This document shows, one piece after another, positions 6,091 to 63,847 of a stretch of 64,000 bases of DNA. The translations under genes and the position numbers were made by a program. The DNA lies in NCBI RefSeq assembly GCF_017254845.1, contig NZ_JAFKCU010000004.1, positions 186,001 through 250,000 of the forward strand. Reading direction: 5' to 3'. The DNA comes from Algoriphagus pacificus (lineage in GTDB: Bacteria > Bacteroidota > Bacteroidia > Cytophagales > Cyclobacteriaceae). Under the pieces are notes generated by a model that was not told the origin of the DNA, ran no database searches, and worked only from the letters and a program-made list of their open reading frames with translations. How positions within the stretch are numbered: position 1 is the first letter of the stretch; every line of letters starts with the position of its first letter.

Positions 6091-9000
6091 ATGTTTATGA
6101 AAAATGTTTACAAAAGTTTAGGTGCATTATTGATGCTCCTATTTCTTTCCAGTGCAGCTGCCTTCGCGCAAAAAACTGTAACTGGAACAGTACTGGATGA
6201 GTATGATGTAGGACTTCCAGGAGTTTCGGTTCTTGTAAAGGGAACTACTACAGGTACTGCCACAGACATTGACGGTAAATTCTCCCTAAATGTCCCAAAT
6301 GACCAAGCTGTATTGGTCTTCTCTTTTATCGGTTATTCTGCTGTTGAGCAGGTAGTTGGTAATAGAAGTATTATTGACGTTAAATTAAGTCCAGATGAAA
6401 CAACGCTTACTGAGCTTGTAGTAACTGGTTACACCATTGATAGTAGAAGAGAGACTACTGGTGCAATTGCAACAGTGGATCCAAAGGATTTGACAGTAAT
6501 TCCTACTGGTAACGTTGAGCAGGCCCTTCAAGGTCGTGTTTCTGGTGTTACCGTAATTACAAACGGTCAGCCAGGTACTACTTCTATCATTCGTGTTAGA
6601 GGTTTCGGTTCCTTCGGTGGAAACGAACCATTATATGTAGTGGATGGGGTTCCTGTTCAATCTACTGACTTCTTGAATCCTGATGATATTGCCTCAACAA
6701 CTGTATTGAAAGATGCAGCTGCAGCTTCTATCTACGGTGCTCGTGCTTCTAATGGTGTAATTATTTATACTACTAAGAGAGGTAGAAAAGGAAATCAGAA
6801 ATTAAGAGTTGATTATAATGGTATGTTCGGTGTAACTACTCCAGGTGAAGGTTTGGCAATGATGAATCCTCAGGATTTTGCTACTTATACTTGGTTGGCT
6901 GAAACAAACCAAGCAAGAATTGACAACAGAGCTCCTAAATATGAGCATCCACAGTTTGGAACTGGAAATACTCCGGTACTGCCTTATTATATCAACGTTG
7001 GAGGTGCTGCTGGTGTAGCTGGACCATTCTCTGCTGCTCAATTGGAAGAAGAGAGAGCAAAATACAATGTTGATAGAAGCAAAGGTGGTGTTTACCAAGT
7101 TGTAAGAGCTGCTACTGGTGAGGGAACAGATTGGTACAAAGAATTAACCAGAAATGCTCCTTTGAACCGTCACTCTATCGGATTGAACGGAGGTTCTGAA
7201 ACAAGCAGATTCTTTATCGGTTTGGGTTATCAGGATCAAGCTGGTATCATGAAAAACAACAATTTCAAGAGAATTTCGCTAAGAGCAAACTCTGAATTTG
7301 ACGTTACTAAGAAATTCAGAATCGGTGAAAACTTCCAAGCTACTTATCGTCAAGTCCTAGGACAAACTGGTGGTAATGGTGGTAGAGGTGTTTCTGCTGA
7401 TGAAAATGATATCCTTCAGGCATTTAGAATGCCTTCAATCATCCCTGTTTATGATGAATTCGGTGGTTATGCAGGTACTGCAGCTAGAGGTTTCAACAAC
7501 CCTAGAAACCCTATTGCAAACAGAGATGGTTTAGAAAATAACAGAAACTTTAATGCGAATATCTTCGGTAACGTTTATGCTGAATATGACATCTTGGAAG
7601 ATTTGACTTTCAGAACTTCTATCGGTGGACAGTATAACAACTATTACTACTGGAACTATTCAAGATTGCAGTATGAAAACTCTGAAAACAACTCTTCATT
7701 TGGTTATTCAGAGGGTGCTGGATTTAACTTCCAGTGGGTATTTACAAACACTGTAAGCTATAAGAAGACTTTTGGAAAGCATGCATTTGATGTGATCTTG
7801 GGTCAGGAAGCTTTGAATAATGGATCAGGAAGAAACATTGATGCTTCTGGTCAGAATCCATTCTCTACAGATACTGACTTCGTAACTATTTCAAACTTGC
7901 CAGTTTCTTCTCGTCAGGTAAACTCAGGTCTGTTTAGAGGTGTTAATTTTGCATCTTATTTCGGTAGAGTTAACTATACCTTCAACGACAAGTACTTATT
8001 CAGTGCAGTTGTAAGACGTGACGGATCTTCTGTATTCGGTGAGAATTCTAGATATGGTGTATTCCCTGCATTCTCTGCAGCTTGGAGAATGTCATCTGAG
8101 CCATTCCTCCAGAGTGCAACTTGGATCGACGAATTGAAAGTTCGTGGTGGATGGGGTCAAATGGGTAACTCTAACCCAGTTCCTTCTACAAACCAATTTT
8201 CTTTATTTGGTGGTAACGTAGGTGCTTCTTCTTATGACGTTGGAGGTACTAACAGTTCTGCACAAATTGGTTTTAGAAGAACTACTATAGGTAACCCAAA
8301 TACTCAGTGGGAAACTGCTGTGACTAAAAACATTGGTTTTGATGGTACTTTCTTCAACGGTAGATTGGATGTGATTTTTGACCTTTGGCAAAAAGACACT
8401 AAGGACTTGTTGTTCCAACTTCCAATTCCTCAAACTGCGGGTAGCAACGCAACTCCTCCATTCGTAAATATCGGTCAGATGAAGAATGCAGGTGTTGACT
8501 TGTTAGTAGCAGTTAAAGGTAACTTGTCTAGCGCATTCACTTACGATTTGACTGTTACTGGATCTACTTTGAAAAATGAAATTGTAGCATTGGCTCCAGG
8601 TTTGAATATCATTACTTCTATTAACCCAAGTTATAGAGGTATTCAGCCTATCAGAAACCAAGTAGGTCAGTCTCTATCTGCTTTCTTTGGTTATAAAGTA
8701 GAAGGTTTGTTTAGAAATGCTGAAGATGTAGCAAATCACGCTACTCAAGATGGTGCTGCTCCAGGTAGATTCAAGTATGAAGATATCAATGGTGACGGTG
8801 AAATTACTCCTGATGATAGAACATTTATCGGTAGCCCAGTTCCTGATTTCACAGGTGGTGTAAACTTCACAGTTGGATATAAAGGATTAGATCTTTCTAT
8901 GTATCTATATACTTCTATCGGTAACGAGATCTGGAATCAATCAAGATGGTTTACTGATTTCTATCAGACATTTGAAGGAGCTGCTATTTCTGAGCGTTTG

Positions 9001-20796: not shown

Positions 20797-20903
20797 CCAA
20801 TTTATAGTTCCCGCTAAGGGTAGGACTTGGCACCTTTCAACCGAGGTGGATGGTTGCCAGAGGGTCAATGAGCCTATTCTCTCGCCTCTTCTTTATAAAT
20901 CAG
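20797..20903 (-). ncRNA. SAM-I (S-box) riboswitch controlling metZ
   Basis: Read on the minus strand the region has the S-box elements in order: P1 ATTTATA...TATAAAT, AAGAGGCGAGAGA, CCTCTGGCAACC, a CAACC/GGTTG stem (P3), and AAGGTGCCAAGTCC. These match the conserved SAM-I core (GGCAACC and AAGGTGCNAANTCC). It lies about 107 nt before the metZ ATG. The expression platform has no evident T-run terminator; a GTTTGA/TCAAAC hairpin (20734-20750) lies between aptamer and start, so control may be translational. Confidence 0.93.
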
Positions 20904-50613: not shown

Positions 50614-50807
50614 TTTTGAATAATTAAAATAGGCGTGAACATGATTCTTTGCTTGATACTTGAAAACCGAAAGGATAATCTTTGGTTTAAAAATTCAGAA
50701 CAAGAAAACCATGTGTGATTTGGTTTTAATTGCTGAGCAAAGTTAGAAGATAATTCAAGATTCGGAACCTTAGCCCTCAGTACATTCAAAAAAATAGGGC
50801 AAAAAAA

Positions 50808-50890
50808 GAAGCGGCATCGCACCGCTACAACCGCCTACCCTTGCTTCCTTCCGGACCTGGGGGATTCAGCAGGAGCTGGTCGTGCCGCTA
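50808..50890 (-). ncRNA. ffs: Signal recognition particle RNA (small bacterial type)
   Basis: On the minus strand the RNA reads from TAGCGGCACGACC through the apical tetraloop domain CAGGTCCGGAAGGAAGCAAGG, quoted here as CAGGTCCGGAAGGAAGCA. This is the universal SRP-RNA core bound by Ffh. The ends AGCGGCA (50889-50883) and TGCCGCT (50816-50810) pair, and a T7 run follows. A short 4.5S-like form of about 83 nt. A matched promoter lies directly upstream. Confidence 0.95.
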
Positions 50891-50895
50891 GGCCA

Positions 50896-50925
50896 CAAAG
50901 GTAAGGCAAAATTCACAGTTTACAA
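50896..50925 (-). promoter_or_regulatory. Promoter of the SRP RNA
   Basis: Minus strand TTG (50925-50923), a 19-bp gap and TACCTTTG (50903-50896), the same -7 box as tRNA-Gln. Transcription would start at about 50890, the RNA's 5' end. Confidence 0.7.
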
Positions 50926-51326: not shown

Positions 51327-51404
51327 ATGAAAACAATAAAAGCAAATATCTGGTGGTGGCATCTGAATTCTTTCCAAGGGAAAGCTCAGAAAGCCCGTGC
51401 CTGA
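51327..51404 (+). CDS. trpL: trp leader peptide with three tandem Trp codons
   Basis: A 25-codon frame beginning MKTIKANIWWWHLNSFQGK and ending KARA. Three consecutive TGG codons (51351-51359) form residues 9-11. Such a Trp run directly upstream of trpE, behind a good promoter and before a terminator hairpin, is the hallmark of a ribosome-stalling attenuator leader. The longer frame in another phase (51227-51424) has no support. See the attenuator entry for the pairing regions. Confidence 0.8.
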   Translation: MKTIKANIWWWHLNSFQGKAQKARA

Positions 51405-52925: not shown

Positions 52926-53315
52926 ATGGCAAAATATGATCGATTCGAAGACTTGCCCGTTTGGCAGCACGCAATTAGAATAGGAGTGAGAATTTATGGA
53001 TTGGTAGAATCTGAAAAATTAGGAAAAGACTATCGTGCCAAAGATCAACTGATTGGGTCTGCAATTTCGATCTCTAATAACATTGCTGAGGGATTTGAAT
53101 ATAATAGAAATAGGCAGTTTATCCGATATCTAGAAATATCAAAAGGTTCGGCAGGTGAACTCCGAAGTCAGCTTTTTTTATTGCTTTCAACAGGAAAAAT
53201 AGACAAGGAAATTTATGACGAATACTATTCGGATTTAATCGATCTGTCAAGTGAATTAAAAGGCTTAATTAAATATTTAAATGAATTTGAAAACGGGAAA
53301 AACAAAAAGGATTAA
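52926..53315 (+). CDS. Four helix bundle protein of the S23 / rRNA intervening-sequence family
   Basis: 129 aa. The recognisable motifs are EDLPVWQHAIRIGVRIY, DYRAKDQLIGSAISISNNIA, EGFEYNRNRQFIRYLEISKG and SAGELRSQLFLLLSTG. This family was first seen as an ORF inside spliced-out 23S rRNA intervening sequences (S23), and related folds occur in accessory proteins of retroelements (Avd). Here it lies inside the trp operon between trpE and trpG, flanked by inverted 19-nt repeats. It is probably an acquired mobile-type cassette rather than part of tryptophan synthesis; function unknown. Confidence 0.92.
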   Translation: MAKYDRFEDLPVWQHAIRIGVRIYGLVESEKLGKDYRAKDQLIGSAISISNNIAEGFEYNRNRQFIRYLEISKGSAGELRSQLFLLLSTGKIDKEIYDEYYSDLIDLSSELKGLIKYLNEFENGKNKKD

Positions 53316-58659: not shown

Positions 58660-59679
58660 ATGATTATTCAACTTCAGCCAGATATTTCCTCTAAGCAAAA
58701 GGAAAACCTGATCGATAAAATCAACGGTATCGGCTACAAAACTACCGAAGTAAAAACCCAATTAGGGGATTACCTGATTGGTATCGGCAAAAAGGAATTT
58801 GACATCCGTAAAATCGGTCAGATGGATGGAATCATTGATATCCATATCGTTTCTGACGAATACAAATTGGTTTCTAAAAAGTGGAAAGCAAAACCAACTT
58901 CCATTGATTTGGGTGATAATGTATTTATCAAAGATGGAGAAATGGCGATCATCACCGGACCTTGTTCGATTGAGTCCGAGGAACAAATCCGTGCTGTGGT
59001 AGCTCATTGTGTTGAAAATAATGTAAAGATGATGCGAGGTGGGGTTTTCAAACCTCGAAGTAGCCCTTATGCATTTAGAGGTTTGGGATTGGAAGGACTA
59101 AAGTTATGGTACAATATCGCCCATGAAGCAGGTATTAAAATCGTGACTGAAGTGATGCAGACTTCTCAGATCGAAGAAATGTATCCTTATGTGGATGTGT
59201 ACCAAGTAGGGGCGAGAAACTCTCAAAACTTCAACTTGCTAGACGAACTTGGCAAAGTAGATAAAGCAGTAATGATCAAACGCGGGATCTCTGGAACAAT
59301 TGAAGAGCTTTTGCAATCTGCTGAATATGTGTTTTCCGGAGGAAATGAAAAGTTGATTCTCTGTGAAAGAGGAATCAGAACTTATGAAAGAGCTTCCAGA
59401 AACACTTTGGATTTGAATGCGATTCCAATCTTAAAAGCAAAATCACATTTGCCTGTGATCGTCGATCCATCTCATGGTATCGGTATCCGTGCTTATGTGC
59501 CACAAATGGCTTTGGCAGGAGTGATGTCGGGTGCCGATGGAATCATCTATGAATCCCACGAAATTCCTGAGAAAGCTTATTCCGATGGCCAACAAACTTT
59601 AGATTTTGTCCAAAGCGCAAGATTGATCTCTTGGATCAGAGAGAGTTTCGCGATGCGAAAAGGATTTGATTTGTTGTAA
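58660..59679 (+). CDS. aroF: 3-deoxy-7-phosphoheptulonate (DAHP) synthase, type I-beta
   Basis: 339 aa. First step of aromatic synthesis from PEP and erythrose 4-phosphate. An N-terminal ferredoxin-like regulatory domain (about 1-70: MIIQLQPDISSKQKENLIDK) precedes the catalytic barrel with AIITGPCSIESEEQIRAV, VKMMRGGVFKPRSSPYAFRG, VYQVGARNSQNFNLL, VMIKRGISGTIEELL and PVIVDPSHGIGIRAYVPQMA. The N-terminal domain is of the kind fused to type I-beta enzymes of Bacillus/Thermotoga. It sits between trp and phhA-his genes and supplies chorismate to trpE. The gene symbol is a convention; aroG/aroH naming varies. Confidence 0.93.
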   Translation: MIIQLQPDISSKQKENLIDKINGIGYKTTEVKTQLGDYLIGIGKKEFDIRKIGQMDGIIDIHIVSDEYKLVSKKWKAKPTSIDLGDNVFIKDGEMAIITGPCSIESEEQIRAVVAHCVENNVKMMRGGVFKPRSSPYAFRGLGLEGLKLWYNIAHEAGIKIVTEVMQTSQIEEMYPYVDVYQVGARNSQNFNLLDELGKVDKAVMIKRGISGTIEELLQSAEYVFSGGNEKLILCERGIRTYERASRNTLDLNAIPILKAKSHLPVIVDPSHGIGIRAYVPQMALAGVMSGADGIIYESHEIPEKAYSDGQQTLDFVQSARLISWIRESFAMRKGFDLL

Positions 59680-59717
59680 AAAATTGATTTCTAGATTAAC
59701 CTGCTTAAATTAGTTGC

Positions 59718-59771
59718 ATGAATCCGACACCAAGAACCTTTGTACATCATTCTTACCACCATTCTCAATGA
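59718..59771 (+). CDS. hisL: Histidine leader peptide (four His codons)
   Basis: A 17-codon frame, MNPTPRTFVHHSYHHSQ, ending TGA. Four of its six codons at 59745-59762 are His, with one Tyr between. A His-rich leader followed by alternative hairpins and an intrinsic terminator, upstream of genes that include hisH-hisA-hisF-hisIE, is the classic his attenuator layout. It is far too short for automatic gene finders. No clear ribosome-binding site is visible, which is usual in Bacteroidetes. The Tyr and Phe codons leave a secondary option of Phe/Tyr sensing, given the phhA gene downstream. Confidence 0.72.
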   Translation: MNPTPRTFVHHSYHHSQ

Positions 59772-59772
59772 A

Positions 59773-59842
59773 GGGGTAGGATTGCTATGGTTTTTTGGTA
59801 AAAATATAGAGGCCTATTCCTTACTGGAGTAGGCCTTTTTTG
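59773..59842 (+). terminator. his/phhA transcription attenuator (segments 1-4)
   Basis: Segment 1 TCTTACC (59751-59757, inside the His codons) can pair with GGTAGGA (59775-59781). The overlapping GGGGTAGG (59773-59780) can instead pair with CCTATTCC (59813-59820), all 8 positions with two G.U pairs, an antiterminator. CCTATTCC is also the 5' arm of the terminator AGGCCTATTCC (59810-59820) with GGAGTAGGCCT (59826-59836), followed by TTTTTT-G-TTTT. A ribosome stalled at the His codons would free segment 2 and prevent termination. Confidence 0.75.
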
Positions 59843-59917
59843 TTTTGCCAGATTTGAAATTGACGAACTTAAGACAGAGAGAATAGTTATAAATACTCAA
59901 GAATATACCCAAATACC

Positions 59918-60703
59918 ATGAACATGAATTCAAAACCAAAAGACTGGGTTTTTACTGACCCGAGATTACAGAAGCTCAAGCAGGAGTACGATGCTTACAC
60001 TGCTGAGGATTTTAAAGTCTGGAAGATATTGTTTGAAAGGCAGATGCCAAACCTACCGAAGGCTGCCTCAAAAGCCTATTTAGAGGGAGTTGAAATTGTG
60101 AATTTCTCTGCGGATAAGATTGCAAATTTTGATGAGCTCAATCAGATTTTATCCAAAACTACAGGGTGGGAAGTTCAGGTGGTTCCAGGATTGATTGATG
60201 ATGATTTGTTCTTTGGACTATTGAATAATCGAAGATTTCCTTCGTCCACTTGGTTGAGGAAAATGGAGCAATTGGATTATTTGGAAGAGCCTGATATGTT
60301 TCACGATGCCTTTGCCCACATGCCGATGTTGACCAATCAGCCTTATGTCGATTTTCTGGAAAAGCTTTCTGGGATCGCTTTGAAACACATCGATAATCCA
60401 TGGGCAATTCAGTTGTTGAGCAGGATTTATTGGTTTACAATTGAATTTGGACTGATAAAAGAGGATGGAGAGTTAAAAATTTACGGGGCTGGTATCTTAA
60501 GTTCGGCCGGAGAGACTAAATTCAGCCTTTCAAATGAGCCAAAGCATTACGATTACGATGTGCGGAGGATTTTGAATCAAGAATACTGGAAAGATCACTT
60601 TCAGGATAAATATTTTGTGATAGAGAATTACGAGCAACTTTATGAATCACTTCCGGAAATAGAAGCGGTTCTTGAAGAGATGTTGCTGGAGAAAGAAAAG
60701 TAG
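59918..60703 (+). CDS. phhA: Phenylalanine 4-monooxygenase (aromatic amino acid hydroxylase)
   Basis: 261 aa. Non-heme iron, pterin-dependent hydroxylase that makes Tyr from Phe. Iron ligands H129 and H134 lie in MFHDAFAHMP and E176 in YWFTIEFGL; the active-site loop FPSSTWLRKMEQLDYLEEPD is typical. It consists of the catalytic domain only, as in Pseudomonas PhhA. Located behind the His-rich leader and before hisH, with no terminator between, so it is probably transcribed under histidine control together with the his genes. Its own N-terminus MNMNSKPKDWVFTDPRLQKL fits the bacterial family. Confidence 0.95.
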   Translation: MNMNSKPKDWVFTDPRLQKLKQEYDAYTAEDFKVWKILFERQMPNLPKAASKAYLEGVEIVNFSADKIANFDELNQILSKTTGWEVQVVPGLIDDDLFFGLLNNRRFPSSTWLRKMEQLDYLEEPDMFHDAFAHMPMLTNQPYVDFLEKLSGIALKHIDNPWAIQLLSRIYWFTIEFGLIKEDGELKIYGAGILSSAGETKFSLSNEPKHYDYDVRRILNQEYWKDHFQDKYFVIENYEQLYESLPEIEAVLEEMLLEKEK

Positions 60704-60790: not shown

Positions 60791-61387
60791 ATGAAAATAG
60801 CAGTCATAAAATACAATTCCGGCAATGTCCAGTCGGTTCTTTATGCATTGGAACGTCTAGGCGTGCAAGCTGAATTGACAGACGATGCTGAAAAAATCAG
60901 GTCAGCAGATAAAGTTGTTTTTCCTGGTCAAGGTGAAGCCAGCACAGCAATGAAATACCTCAAGAAAAGGAACCTTGACACTTTGATTGGAGATTTGAAA
61001 CAGCCATTTCTGGGAGTCTGCTTAGGACTTCAACTTTTGTGTGAGCACTCTGAAGAAAATGACACGAAGTGTTTGGGGATTTTTCCGGTGAAAGTGAAGA
61101 AGTTTGTGCCTGAAAATTCCCAGGAATTCAAAGTGCCTCATGTAGGTTGGAATGAATTGGAGGATTTAAAAAACAATCCATTGCTAGCCGATCTTCCAGC
61201 AAACCCATTTGTATATTATGTGCATAGCTATTATGCGGAACTAAGCAATTTGACTCTGGCAAGTACGCATTATATCCATGATTTTTCCGGAATTCTTCAT
61301 CGGGATAATTACTATGCCATTCAGGCTCACCCTGAGAAAAGTGGCTTAGTGGGAGAGAAGCTGTTAAGCAATTTCTTAAGGATTTAA
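60791..61387 (+). CDS. hisH: Imidazole glycerol phosphate synthase subunit HisH
   Basis: 198 aa from ATG 60791 (MKIAVIKYNSGNVQSV); the longer frame runs into the repeat and is rejected. Glutamine amidotransferase of the HisF/HisH complex. Catalytic Cys in FLGVCLGLQLLCEHS and His/Glu in YYAIQAHPEKSG; VVFPGQGEASTAMKYL is the oxyanion region. First his gene after phhA. hisG, hisD, hisC and hisB are not in this window. Confidence 0.96.
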   Translation: MKIAVIKYNSGNVQSVLYALERLGVQAELTDDAEKIRSADKVVFPGQGEASTAMKYLKKRNLDTLIGDLKQPFLGVCLGLQLLCEHSEENDTKCLGIFPVKVKKFVPENSQEFKVPHVGWNELEDLKNNPLLADLPANPFVYYVHSYYAELSNLTLASTHYIHDFSGILHRDNYYAIQAHPEKSGLVGEKLLSNFLRI

Positions 61388-61399
61388 AATCATAAATAA

Positions 61400-61424
61400 C
61401 GATTTACGAAATACGAGTTACGAG
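61400..61424. repeat. TACGAA-type intergenic repeat after hisH
   Basis: The region reads CGATTTACGAAATACGAG then TTACGAG, a cluster of the TACGAAATACGA word seen in trpB-trpA and hisA-hisF gaps. It starts 13 bp after the hisH stop. Confidence 0.6.
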
Positions 61425-61518
61425 GTGTTTCTGCACCTTCACAACAAGAATAAAACTCAAATCCCCATGTTTCCTTTGAAATATGCTGACAGCCCTTCAA
61501 TAATTAATGTTAAATCAT

Positions 61519-61562: not shown

Positions 61563-62279
61563 ATGCAAATAATCCCAGCAATCGACCTTATCGGAGGTAA
61601 ATGTGTCCGACTAAGCCAAGGCGATTACAGCAGCAAAAAAGAATACCATGACGATCCTTTGGAAATGGCCAAGCGTTTTGAAGGAGCTGGAATCCAAAGA
61701 CTTCATTTGGTAGATCTTGATGGTGCCAAAGCCAAAAAGATTGTAAATGGAGATGTACTGGAAAGAATAACAAGCGGGACTAGTTTACAACTTGATTTTG
61801 GGGGAGGAATTCAGTCAGATGAGGAAATTGAGAAGGCTTTTGAATTCGGAGCAAAGCAGGTAACTGGTGGAAGTATTGCAGTGAAAAACCCAGAACTATT
61901 TGGTGGTTGGATCACCAGATTTGGCGCTGATAAAATCATTCTTGGTGCTGATGCCAAAAACAGAAAGATCGCAGTCGGAGGTTGGGAAGAAACTACCTCC
62001 GTGGATTTGATTCCATTTATCAAAGACTATGTCGAGAAAGGAATCAGCTATGTGATCTGTACGGATGTAGCAAAAGACGGATTGCTTCAAGGTCCATCTA
62101 CGGATTTATACAAAGAGATTTTAGAAGAAATTCCTGGCGTAAAATTGATCGCAAGTGGAGGAGTATCCTCTGTGAAAGATTTGGAAGAACTGGAGAAAAT
62201 AGGTGTTTACGGGACAATCGTTGGGAAGGCCTATTATGAAGGAAGAGTAACGTTGGAGGAATTGGCAGCTTTCGTTTAA
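61563..62279 (+). CDS. hisA: Phosphoribosylformimino-5-aminoimidazole carboxamide ribotide isomerase
   Basis: 238 aa TIM barrel. MQIIPAIDLIGGKCVRLSQG, LHLVDLDGAK, QLDFGGGIQSDEEIEKAFE, VCTDVAKDGLLQGPS and KLIASGGVSSVKDLEEL are typical. Fourth step of histidine synthesis. A repeat-rich gap of about 200 bp follows before hisF. Confidence 0.97.
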   Translation: MQIIPAIDLIGGKCVRLSQGDYSSKKEYHDDPLEMAKRFEGAGIQRLHLVDLDGAKAKKIVNGDVLERITSGTSLQLDFGGGIQSDEEIEKAFEFGAKQVTGGSIAVKNPELFGGWITRFGADKIILGADAKNRKIAVGGWEETTSVDLIPFIKDYVEKGISYVICTDVAKDGLLQGPSTDLYKEILEEIPGVKLIASGGVSSVKDLEELEKIGVYGTIVGKAYYEGRVTLEELAAFV

Positions 62280-62431
62280 GTACGATTTACGAAATAAGAA
62301 TTACGAGATTGAACTGAACCTCAATTATCAATATCAATTCTCACCATCAAAAAAGGCTAAATATGGGGAGGATGGTAAACACAAAAATAGACCTCGAACC
62401 CCGATAACTATAGGGGCGTATTTCGTACTTC
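62280..62431. repeat. Inverted TACGAA-type repeat in the hisA-hisF gap
   Basis: TACGATTTACGAAATAAG (62281-62298) with TTACGAG after it faces CGTATTTCGTACTTC (62417-62431), inverted and imperfect. The roughly 110 bp between contain no gene, so the unit resembles a non-coding palindromic element. Confidence 0.6.
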
Positions 62432-62480: not shown

Positions 62481-63236
62481 ATGCTTACTAAACGAATAAT
62501 CCCCTGCCTAGATATCAAAGAAGGCCGAACAGTCAAAGGAGTGAACTTTGTTGAGCTGCGTGATGCAGGTGATCCGGTGGAGTTGGCAAAAATTTACTCG
62601 GATGAAGGGGCTGACGAATTGGTGTTTTTGGATATCACTGCAACCGTAGATAAGCGTAAAACTTTAGCGGAATTAGTTACAAAAGTGGCCAAAGCCATCA
62701 ATATTCCATTTACAGTGGGAGGCGGGATTTCTACTGTAGAGGATGTGAAAGTATTGCTTAATGCCGGAGCCGATAAGATTTCCATCAATTCTTCAGCGGT
62801 GAAAAATCCTCAAATTATCAATGAAATGGCTGCCGAGTTTGGTTCTCAATGCATTGTTGTAGCGATAGATACCCGAAATGTAGACGGAATTGACTTTGTC
62901 CATACTCATGGAGGCAGGCGGGCAACGCTTCTAAAAACACAAGAATGGGCTCAGGAAGTCTGCGAACGTGGTGCTGGAGAAATTCTTCTGACTTCCATGG
63001 ATCATGATGGGACTAAAGCTGGATTTTCCAATGAATTATTAGCTGAGATTTCTTCAGCACTTTCCATTCCAGTTATTGCTTCTGGGGGAGCTGGGACCAT
63101 GGCACATTTCAAAGATGTGTTTACCTTTGGAAAAGCAGATGCAGCTTTGGCAGCAAGTATTTTCCACTTTAAAGAGATTGGAATTCCTGAATTGAAGCGA
63201 TACCTCGCCGATTCAGAAATCAGCATAAGAAACTAG
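62481..63236 (+). CDS. hisF: Imidazole glycerol phosphate synthase subunit HisF
   Basis: 251 aa TIM barrel. [86 protein letters not shown] and [20 protein letters not shown] are complete. Works with HisH. hisIE starts 2 bp later. Confidence 0.98.
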
Positions 63237-63238
63237 TA

Positions 63239-63847
63239 ATGAGCGAAAGAATAATTGATTTCAAAAAAATGGACGGTTTAGTGCCTGCAATAGTACAAGA
63301 TGCTTTGAGCGGGAAAGTACTGATGCAAGGCTATATGAATGAGGAGGCTTTGGTAAAAACCAAGGAAACTAAACAAGTGACTTTTTTTAGCCGTAGCAAA
63401 AACCGGCTTTGGACAAAAGGAGAAACCTCTGGAAATTTCATGGAGCTAGTTTCAATTTCTGTTGACTGTGACGGAGATTCTATTTTGGTGAAAGCTAATC
63501 CAAAAGGTCCGGTTTGTCACACAGGTGCAGATACTTGTTTTGCTGAGGTGAATTCTTCTAAAATTGGTTTTATTGACCAGCTGAGAGCCATTATCAAGGA
63601 TAGAAAAAACAATCCAACGGACAAATCCTATACAGCCTCACTTTTTGCCAAAGGCATCAATAAAGTTGCCCAGAAAGTTGGAGAAGAAGCGGTAGAGATC
63701 GTGATCGAGGCTAAAGACGACAACAAAGAATTATTTATGGGGGAAGCGGCGGATTTACTTTACCACTATTTGGTTTTGTTGGAGGCCAAAGGATATGAAC
63801 TAGATGAAGTAATGGATGTGCTGATAGAAAGACATCAGAAAAAATAA
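63239..63847 (+). CDS. hisI: Bifunctional phosphoribosyl-AMP cyclohydrolase / phosphoribosyl-ATP pyrophosphatase
   Basis: 202 aa HisIE fusion. The HisI half (about 1-110) has IVQDALSGKVLMQGYMNEEA, TKQVTFFSRSKNRLWTKGET and SGNFMELVSISVDCDGDSIL with the zinc Cys residues in GPVCHTGADTCF. The HisE half (about 120-202) has YTASLFAKGINKVAQKVGEE and AVEIVIEAKDD. Catalyses the second and third steps of histidine synthesis. Its end overlaps a strong terminator, so it closes the phhA-his transcript. Confidence 0.97.
   Translation: MSERIIDFKKMDGLVPAIVQDALSGKVLMQGYMNEEALVKTKETKQVTFFSRSKNRLWTKGETSGNFMELVSISVDCDGDSILVKANPKGPVCHTGADTCFAEVNSSKIGFIDQLRAIIKDRKNNPTDKSYTASLFAKGINKVAQKVGEEAVEIVIEAKDDNKELFMGEAADLLYHYLVLLEAKGYELDEVMDVLIERHQKK

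Follow-up and report, generated by a model that had tools for sequence, protein, structure and literature searches.

A Candidate Tyrosine- and Histidine-Responsive Leader Peptide Attenuator Upstream of phhA-hisHAFI in Algoriphagus pacificus and Other Cytophagales

Results

The window, the 64,000-nucleotide stretch of the Algoriphagus pacificus genome analyzed here, carries phhA at 59918..60703, hisH at 60791..61387, hisA at 61563..62279, hisF at 62481..63236, and hisI (hisIE) at 63239..63847, all on the plus strand. The phhA product is phenylalanine 4-monooxygenase, which converts Phe to Tyr; it matches NF008877 at 275.1 bits (cutoff, 247) and PF00351 above cutoff. The his gene products match TIGR01855, TIGR00007, TIGR00735, and NF002747, respectively, all above cutoff. 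Upstream lies a DAHP synthase gene (58660..59679, plus strand), identified by NF006421 and TIGR01361 above cutoff and by synteny, which is the last gene of a trp cluster. A scan of the four gaps from the DAHP synthase gene to hisF turned up one terminator and one promoter-like box with a TTG partner, both belonging to the leader described below. phhA-hisHAFI is presumably a single transcript, with two intergenic gaps of more than 170 nt, and read-through out of the DAHP synthase gene would meet the attenuator too. A 40-nt direct repeat (80% alike) occupies 61399-61438 in the hisH-hisA gap and 62282-62321 in the hisA-hisF gap. Elsewhere in the window, Rfam identified a SAM riboswitch (20799-20901, minus strand) and a Bacteroidales small SRP RNA (50803-50896, minus strand), and a small ORF (MAKYDRFEDLPVWQHAIRIG...) between trpE and trpG (52926-53315) resembles a four-helix bundle by eye.

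Between the DAHP synthase gene and phhA is a leader peptide ORF of 17 codons, MNPTPRTFVHHSYHHSQ (ATG at 59718 to TGA at 59771, plus strand), with four His codons, one Tyr codon, and one Phe codon. Its frame had been read from the letters alone in the original prediction and is confirmed to the base; the coordinates given there for the three pairing segments and for the terminator with its six T also hold. A predicted sigma-A(Bacteroidetes)-type promoter, TTG-N19-TAAATTAG (59684..59713, plus strand), ends 4 nt 5′ of the leader ATG. Both strands of the window were searched for ORFs starting with ATG or GTG in which 5 or more of 8 codons are His/Tyr and whose end lies no more than 110 nt from a terminator at least as stable as −14 kcal/mol; the single occurrence was the phhA leader. 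Dinucleotide-preserving shuffles of 59680-59917 did not yield even the His/Tyr-rich ORF (0 of 1,500). The leader pattern before phhA is not due to chance.

The pairing elements all lie on the plus strand. Segment 1, TCTTACC (59751-59757), is inside codons 12 to 14 and pairs with GGTAGGA at 59775-59781. Segment 2, GGGGTAGGA (59773-59781), directly follows the stop codon and has either segment 1 or segment 3 as its partner; its bases 59773-59780 read GGGGTAGG. Segment 3, CCTATTCC (59813-59820), pairs with segment 2 to form the antiterminator and is also the 5′ arm of an intrinsic terminator at about 59809-59837 (−20.5 kcal/mol), which has six T at 59836-59841. The fold of 59712-59845 has a z score of −4.78 and was equaled in stability by 0 of 200 shuffles. 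For the antiterminator, z is only −1.4 in the window itself and averages −2.3 over 52 leaders; in a further set of 46 leaders, the computed value is below −1 in 25.

In the mechanism that we propose, RNA polymerase would start at or adjoining the leader AUG, and a ribosome would follow. Were Tyr- or His-tRNA short, this ribosome would stall on segment 1 at the HHSYHH codons, so that segment 2 would pair with segment 3, no terminator would form, and phhA-hisHAFI would be transcribed. Were both tRNAs plentiful, the ribosome at the stop codon would cover segment 2, and the terminator would end transcription; the same would follow without a ribosome, with segment 1 pairing with segment 2. The Tyr codons would serve phhA, which makes Tyr from Phe, and the His codons would serve hisHAFI. 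The sequences themselves show the anatomy, its conservation, the wealth of synonymous changes, and the match of codons to gene content across genomes; stalling, read-through, the single transcript, and the start at +1 are inferred.

A phhA search of a species-genome collection gave 577 confirmed loci, the best 80 of which were kept; Algoriphagus aestuarii was among the nearest named matches (97% identity). Besides the window, 51 of these 80 loci have the leader, and in 50 of the 51 it is followed downstream by hisH, hisA, hisF, and hisI, the remaining contig ending 174 bp past phhA; the gene order on which the original prediction built is thus found in relatives as well. At the other 29 of the best 80 loci, e.g., in Belliella, Cecembia, and Aquiflexum, no leader was detected, and hisH still stands behind phhA at 23 of them. 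Forty-five Algoriphagus-type leaders, the window included, share M[NS]PTPRT[FY][VI]HHS..., starting with ATG in 34 and GTG in 11. P3, T4, P5, R6, T7, H10, H11, and S12 are the same residue in 45/45; codon 8, Phe in the window, is Phe or Tyr in 45/45, and codon 13 is Tyr in 31. Third-base changes occur at every invariant codon (3 to 7 and 10 to 12) except R6, which varies between AGA and CGA. Invariant residues with synonymous variation argue that the ORF is translated. Algoriphagus winogradskyi (L046, 3194-4000) has a further ORF between attenuator and phhA, which would likewise be under leader control.

Litoribacter, Rhodonellum, Echinicola, and Anditalea have different peptides in the same style (e.g., MFENQAVKYYSHYYHFFSSWD), and in more distant family members runs of Tyr codons (e.g., MNNYYYYYYYRMMSFGMGVVCS), together with a strong terminator, may occupy this slot ahead of phhA. 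Where phhA is followed by hisH, the Tyr runs are mixed with His, e.g., AYYYHYYH. In wider samples, Tyr-run leaders were found at 11 of 40 loci (by eye), at 5 of 20, and, in the order survey, at 15 of 40 (with the spurious L274 left out and L256 included), the remaining 25 phhA loci of that survey being without a leader.

The antiterminator and the terminator are kept along with the peptide. Six of the 45 Algoriphagus-type rows (L040, L052, L055, L067, L070, and L071), whose segment 2 is displaced by one base, were left out of the pair counts. In helix 2:3, the antiterminator, 312 of 312 cells are paired across 39 leaders, and sliding it by 1 to 3 columns leaves at most 59.6% paired; in the terminator, 96.9% of 390 cells are paired. 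Helix 1:2 is paired in 83.9% of cells in the window's register; it exists in most leaders and is strong in many, though without one common register, which shifts among relatives. The mutually exclusive antiterminator and terminator are thus conserved in the window's clade, and together with the anatomy these counts uphold the attenuator architecture originally proposed. Alignment across relatives had been suggested as its check. Frame and stems proved conserved, helix 1:2 with a shifting register, while covariation was thin: helix 2:3 holds a single two-sided change (L057), and column shuffles equaled its score in 69 of 500 cases. Segment 3 is almost constant, which makes true compensatory changes rare, and covariation was set aside as the main proof for want of variation.

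Promoter position was compared in the same groups. In 27 of 52 window-group leaders, exactly 4 nt separate the start codon from the end of a TAnnTTTG-like box with a TTG 19 to 20 nt further 5′; in the others, the distance is 2 to 9 nt (4 leaders), 14 to 18 nt (6), or 40 to 50 nt (6), or no box was found (9). In the further set of 46 leaders, the box is 4 to 8 nt from the start in 20, further off in 2, and absent in 24. Passages of PMC9723704 place the −7 box TAnnTTTG of Flavobacterium psychrophilum at −12 to −5 and put leaderless mRNAs in that species at only 5.5%. With this spacing, a box that ends 4 nt before the start codon would set +1 on the first base of that codon. Leaderless initiation is therefore likely in many phhA leaders, not in all, and the window's own leader may start in this way. 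Directly 5′ of the phhA start codon is a conserved (A)CCCAAATA (59907-59915 in the window), also present at leader-free loci (e.g., L080 and L088), which might be a translation signal.

Leader codons were compared with operon content across the order, with one leader per genome and the window not counted. All 96 phhA leaders contain Tyr codons, in runs of up to YYYYYYY. A Tyr/His cluster was defined as neighbors at most one other codon apart; the definition was set after the peptides were seen, and it matters for THNTYYYYY leaders, where His stands three codons ahead of the run. His is in the cluster of 66 of the 68 leaders with a his gene behind phhA versus 2 of the 28 with none found, 12 of those 28 loci being covered for only about 1.5 kb downstream. 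The cluster is Tyr only in the other 26 of the 28 (Fisher test for the table, 6.6e-19, with kinship ignored). Two of the exceptions, L263 and L265, belong to one genus and have hisH alone found downstream and no His codon; the other two, L276 and L292, have a His codon and no his gene, and in L276 a phhB-like gene (by eye) follows phhA. L279, L281, and L292 are weak as leaders. The table leaves out the window, second copies of the same genome, L274 (a spurious ORF), L094 and others that end too soon after phhA, and L238 to L253, which are additional or duplicate genomes from the window's clade, those listed having a leader, His codons, and his genes. Three detector misses (L046, L063, and L068) and 15 loci were added by hand; L256, with a leader and a his gene, was found later and is outside the count.

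One genus is represented by 10 genomes: NTYYYYY occurs in the 8 that show no his gene within 1.5 kb, and HYYYY(Y)H in the 2 with hisH-hisA. The rule that His codons are present if and only if his genes follow predicted five contexts beforehand, and 5/5 came true, two of them (L220 and L221) being identical leaders from one genus. A phhA tree was built from 62 of the 96 rows, with only a few of the numerous Algoriphagus among them; along it there are 7 changes in his linkage and 8 in the His codon. A sign test on supported branches had 4 pairs only (median p, 0.25), and a Pagel-type test with our own code gave a likelihood ratio (LR) of 22.7 (4 df; p, 1.4e-4) on one tree of these rows. The 96 leaders are not independent, and phylogeny-corrected support for the match of codons to content is moderate. 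It looks as though leader codons track operon content, Tyr for phhA and His for hisHAFI.

These counts bear on the reading that the attenuator responds purely to histidine and that the Tyr and Phe codons are present only for pairing with segment 2. The window's leader, with 4 His codons versus 1 Tyr, the invariant His10 and His11, and the position of Tyr codon 13 within segment 1 would all suit such control. Against it stand the constant Tyr codons, the Tyr-only clusters of leaders without his genes, and the Echinicola leaders, which have 4 Tyr codons versus 2 His. Two other leaders of the clade served as controls. The window's trpE leader, MKTIKANIWWWHLNSFQGKAQKARA (51327-51404), contains WWW, and its strong terminator ends at about 51457. 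The hisGDCB genes, elsewhere in the genome, have a separate leader ending in VQHHFHHSS. Twenty-eight genomes were searched, and a His-rich leader precedes hisG in all 27 relatives with a hisG match; none of these 27 has Tyr in its last 8 codons (by eye). Tyr in phhA leaders is therefore not a by-product of His leaders, and a single clade has a leader for Trp at trpE, one for His at hisG, and one for Tyr, alone or joined by His, at phhA. On this evidence, control by histidine alone is rejected as a general rule, and we regard it as improbable overall. The original prediction, in essence a histidine switch of the hisL type in which phhA is the odd one out, is thus not supported, given the Tyr-only clusters, although its His codons do turn out to be a meaningful signal.

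The hisGDCB leaders (L115 at about 8414-8497, minus strand, G000:C12 near 1138.5 kb; and L118 to L144) mostly end in HHxHHSS, and many have the stop codon in the loop of a ATTCCTCC/GGAGGAAT hairpin followed by a ACATATCGCCC motif. They show no obvious U-run terminator, and the three loci scanned (L115, L123, and L135) gave no Rfam match. Their control is possibly different, translational or of a pause type.

Two further readings do without amino acid supply as the main signal. A plain terminator could simply separate the trp-DAHP synthase and phhA-his operons, the small ORF being unrelated or vestigial and without translational regulation. Its location between these operons and the 29 relatives among the best 80 in which no leader was found agree with this, but the peptide is kept despite synonymous changes, segment 2 is complementary to segment 3 in every cell counted, codons follow gene content, and other genera show the same design with other peptides; we consider it very improbable. 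Equally remote is action by the peptide itself, through arrest or in trans, with amino acid supply secondary, for which PTPRT is invariant in Algoriphagus despite synonymous changes and the leader peptide peTrpL of Sinorhizobium, which reportedly has a role in trans (PMC7298713), offers a precedent; this N-terminal part is not common to the leaders of other genera, whereas the Tyr/His codons are.

Discussion

The short phhA leader is rich in codons for the amino acids that its operon makes, its translation being suggested by the synonymous changes, and Tyr and His codons precede phhA and hisHAFI together. The reading that we prefer, at a probability of roughly 0.8, is that phhA-hisHAFI answers jointly to charged tRNA-Tyr and tRNA-His through a ribosome-mediated transcription attenuator. 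With 4 His codons versus 1 Tyr, histidine should be the main signal at the window's leader, and its response is probably dominant there. The Echinicola leaders should respond to both amino acids and the YYYYYYY leaders to tyrosine alone. Retuning would be easy, UAY and CAY being one transition apart. With somewhat less confidence, we consider it probable that phhA of the Cytophagales has a class of Tyr-sensing ribosome-mediated attenuator on a leaderless or nearly leaderless mRNA, retuned between UAY and CAY as his genes join or leave, and placing two unrelated pathways behind a natural Tyr-or-His gate.

Fitness data in passages of PMC7311316 propose that, in Echinicola vietnamensis, phenylalanine hydroxylase (PAH) offers a Tyr route parallel to prephenate or arogenate dehydrogenase. 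Echinicola belongs to the same family as the window, Cyclobacteriaceae, and three other Echinicola species carry the phhA leader (L104, L106, and L110). The window's genome has TyrA, which rules out PhhA as its sole Tyr route; a recognizable TyrA is missing in 8 of the 27 leader-bearing genomes tested. With PAH as a Tyr route and some genomes without TyrA, Tyr control of phhA makes sense. A phenylalanine hydroxylase in a histidine-attenuated unit had been a puzzle, and it dissolves if one leader reads the products of two pathways. Tyr and Phe codons in the leader had been taken to leave room for a joint response. Joint reading now appears the better account, with Tyr as the constant signal; the Phe codon is unlikely to be regulatory, since Phe is the substrate of PhhA and position 8 alternates between Phe and Tyr.

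The mechanism class, ribosome-mediated attenuation, is already known. In the amino acid operons of Proteobacteria, trpL, hisL, pheL, thrL, and ilvL are attenuators of this kind, and the phhA leader resembles them in its leader ORF with cognate codons, its exclusive antiterminator and terminator hairpins, and the biosynthetic genes downstream. It differs in that Tyr is sensed with phhA as the target, in the combination of Tyr with His, in its occurrence in Cytophagales, and in a start codon at the predicted +1. Multivalent attenuators are also known, ilvL for Ile, Val, and Leu and thrL for Thr and Ile, in which, as here, a single leader has codons for several amino acids served by the operon. 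The phhA leader, unlike these, joins two amino acids from unrelated pathways and has Tyr-only versions in related genomes, once in the same genus, without his genes behind phhA. T-boxes bind tRNA directly, whereas the sensor proposed for the phhA leader is a translated Tyr run. Tyrosine T-boxes, named in passages of PMC1262725, share with it the sensing of tyrosine at the RNA level. Within the same phylum, signs of leader peptide attenuation are reported in Flavobacterium psychrophilum, before amino acid operons, and in Bacteroides; the main-text passages of these accounts (PMC9723704 and PMC7366714) name no phhA, tyrosine, or histidine leaders.

No Rfam family reached threshold at the window's leader or at nine other leader loci. 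His_leader, the hisL family of Proteobacteria, had no match at gathering in the window and was not among the 14 matches up to an E value of 10 for 59600-60000. Searching 401 bases gave the RF04312 trpB motif a score of 28.2 bits (E, 0.054) versus a gathering score of 59 bits, and this match and that of Thr_leader, both far below threshold, were rejected. The Lyubetsky group is reported to have compared attenuation across a wide range of bacteria. Among the matches listed in the open-licence PubMed Central literature, there was no tyrosine leader or phhA leader, and none for Tyr as a signal for translated leaders, for the Tyr and His pairing, or for the match of codons to content. The main text of PMC8305728, on the his genes of Bacteroidota, is without the words leader, phenylalanine, and Algoriphagus.

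Through this attenuator, a bacterial phenylalanine hydroxylase would gain a place in regulated tyrosine synthesis, and tyrosine, alone and with histidine, would be added to the amino acids to which translated leaders seem to respond. Leader codons set against operon content across many genomes, in one case within a genus, amount to a natural experiment, in which the rule that a leader's codons match what the downstream genes make can be tested directly.
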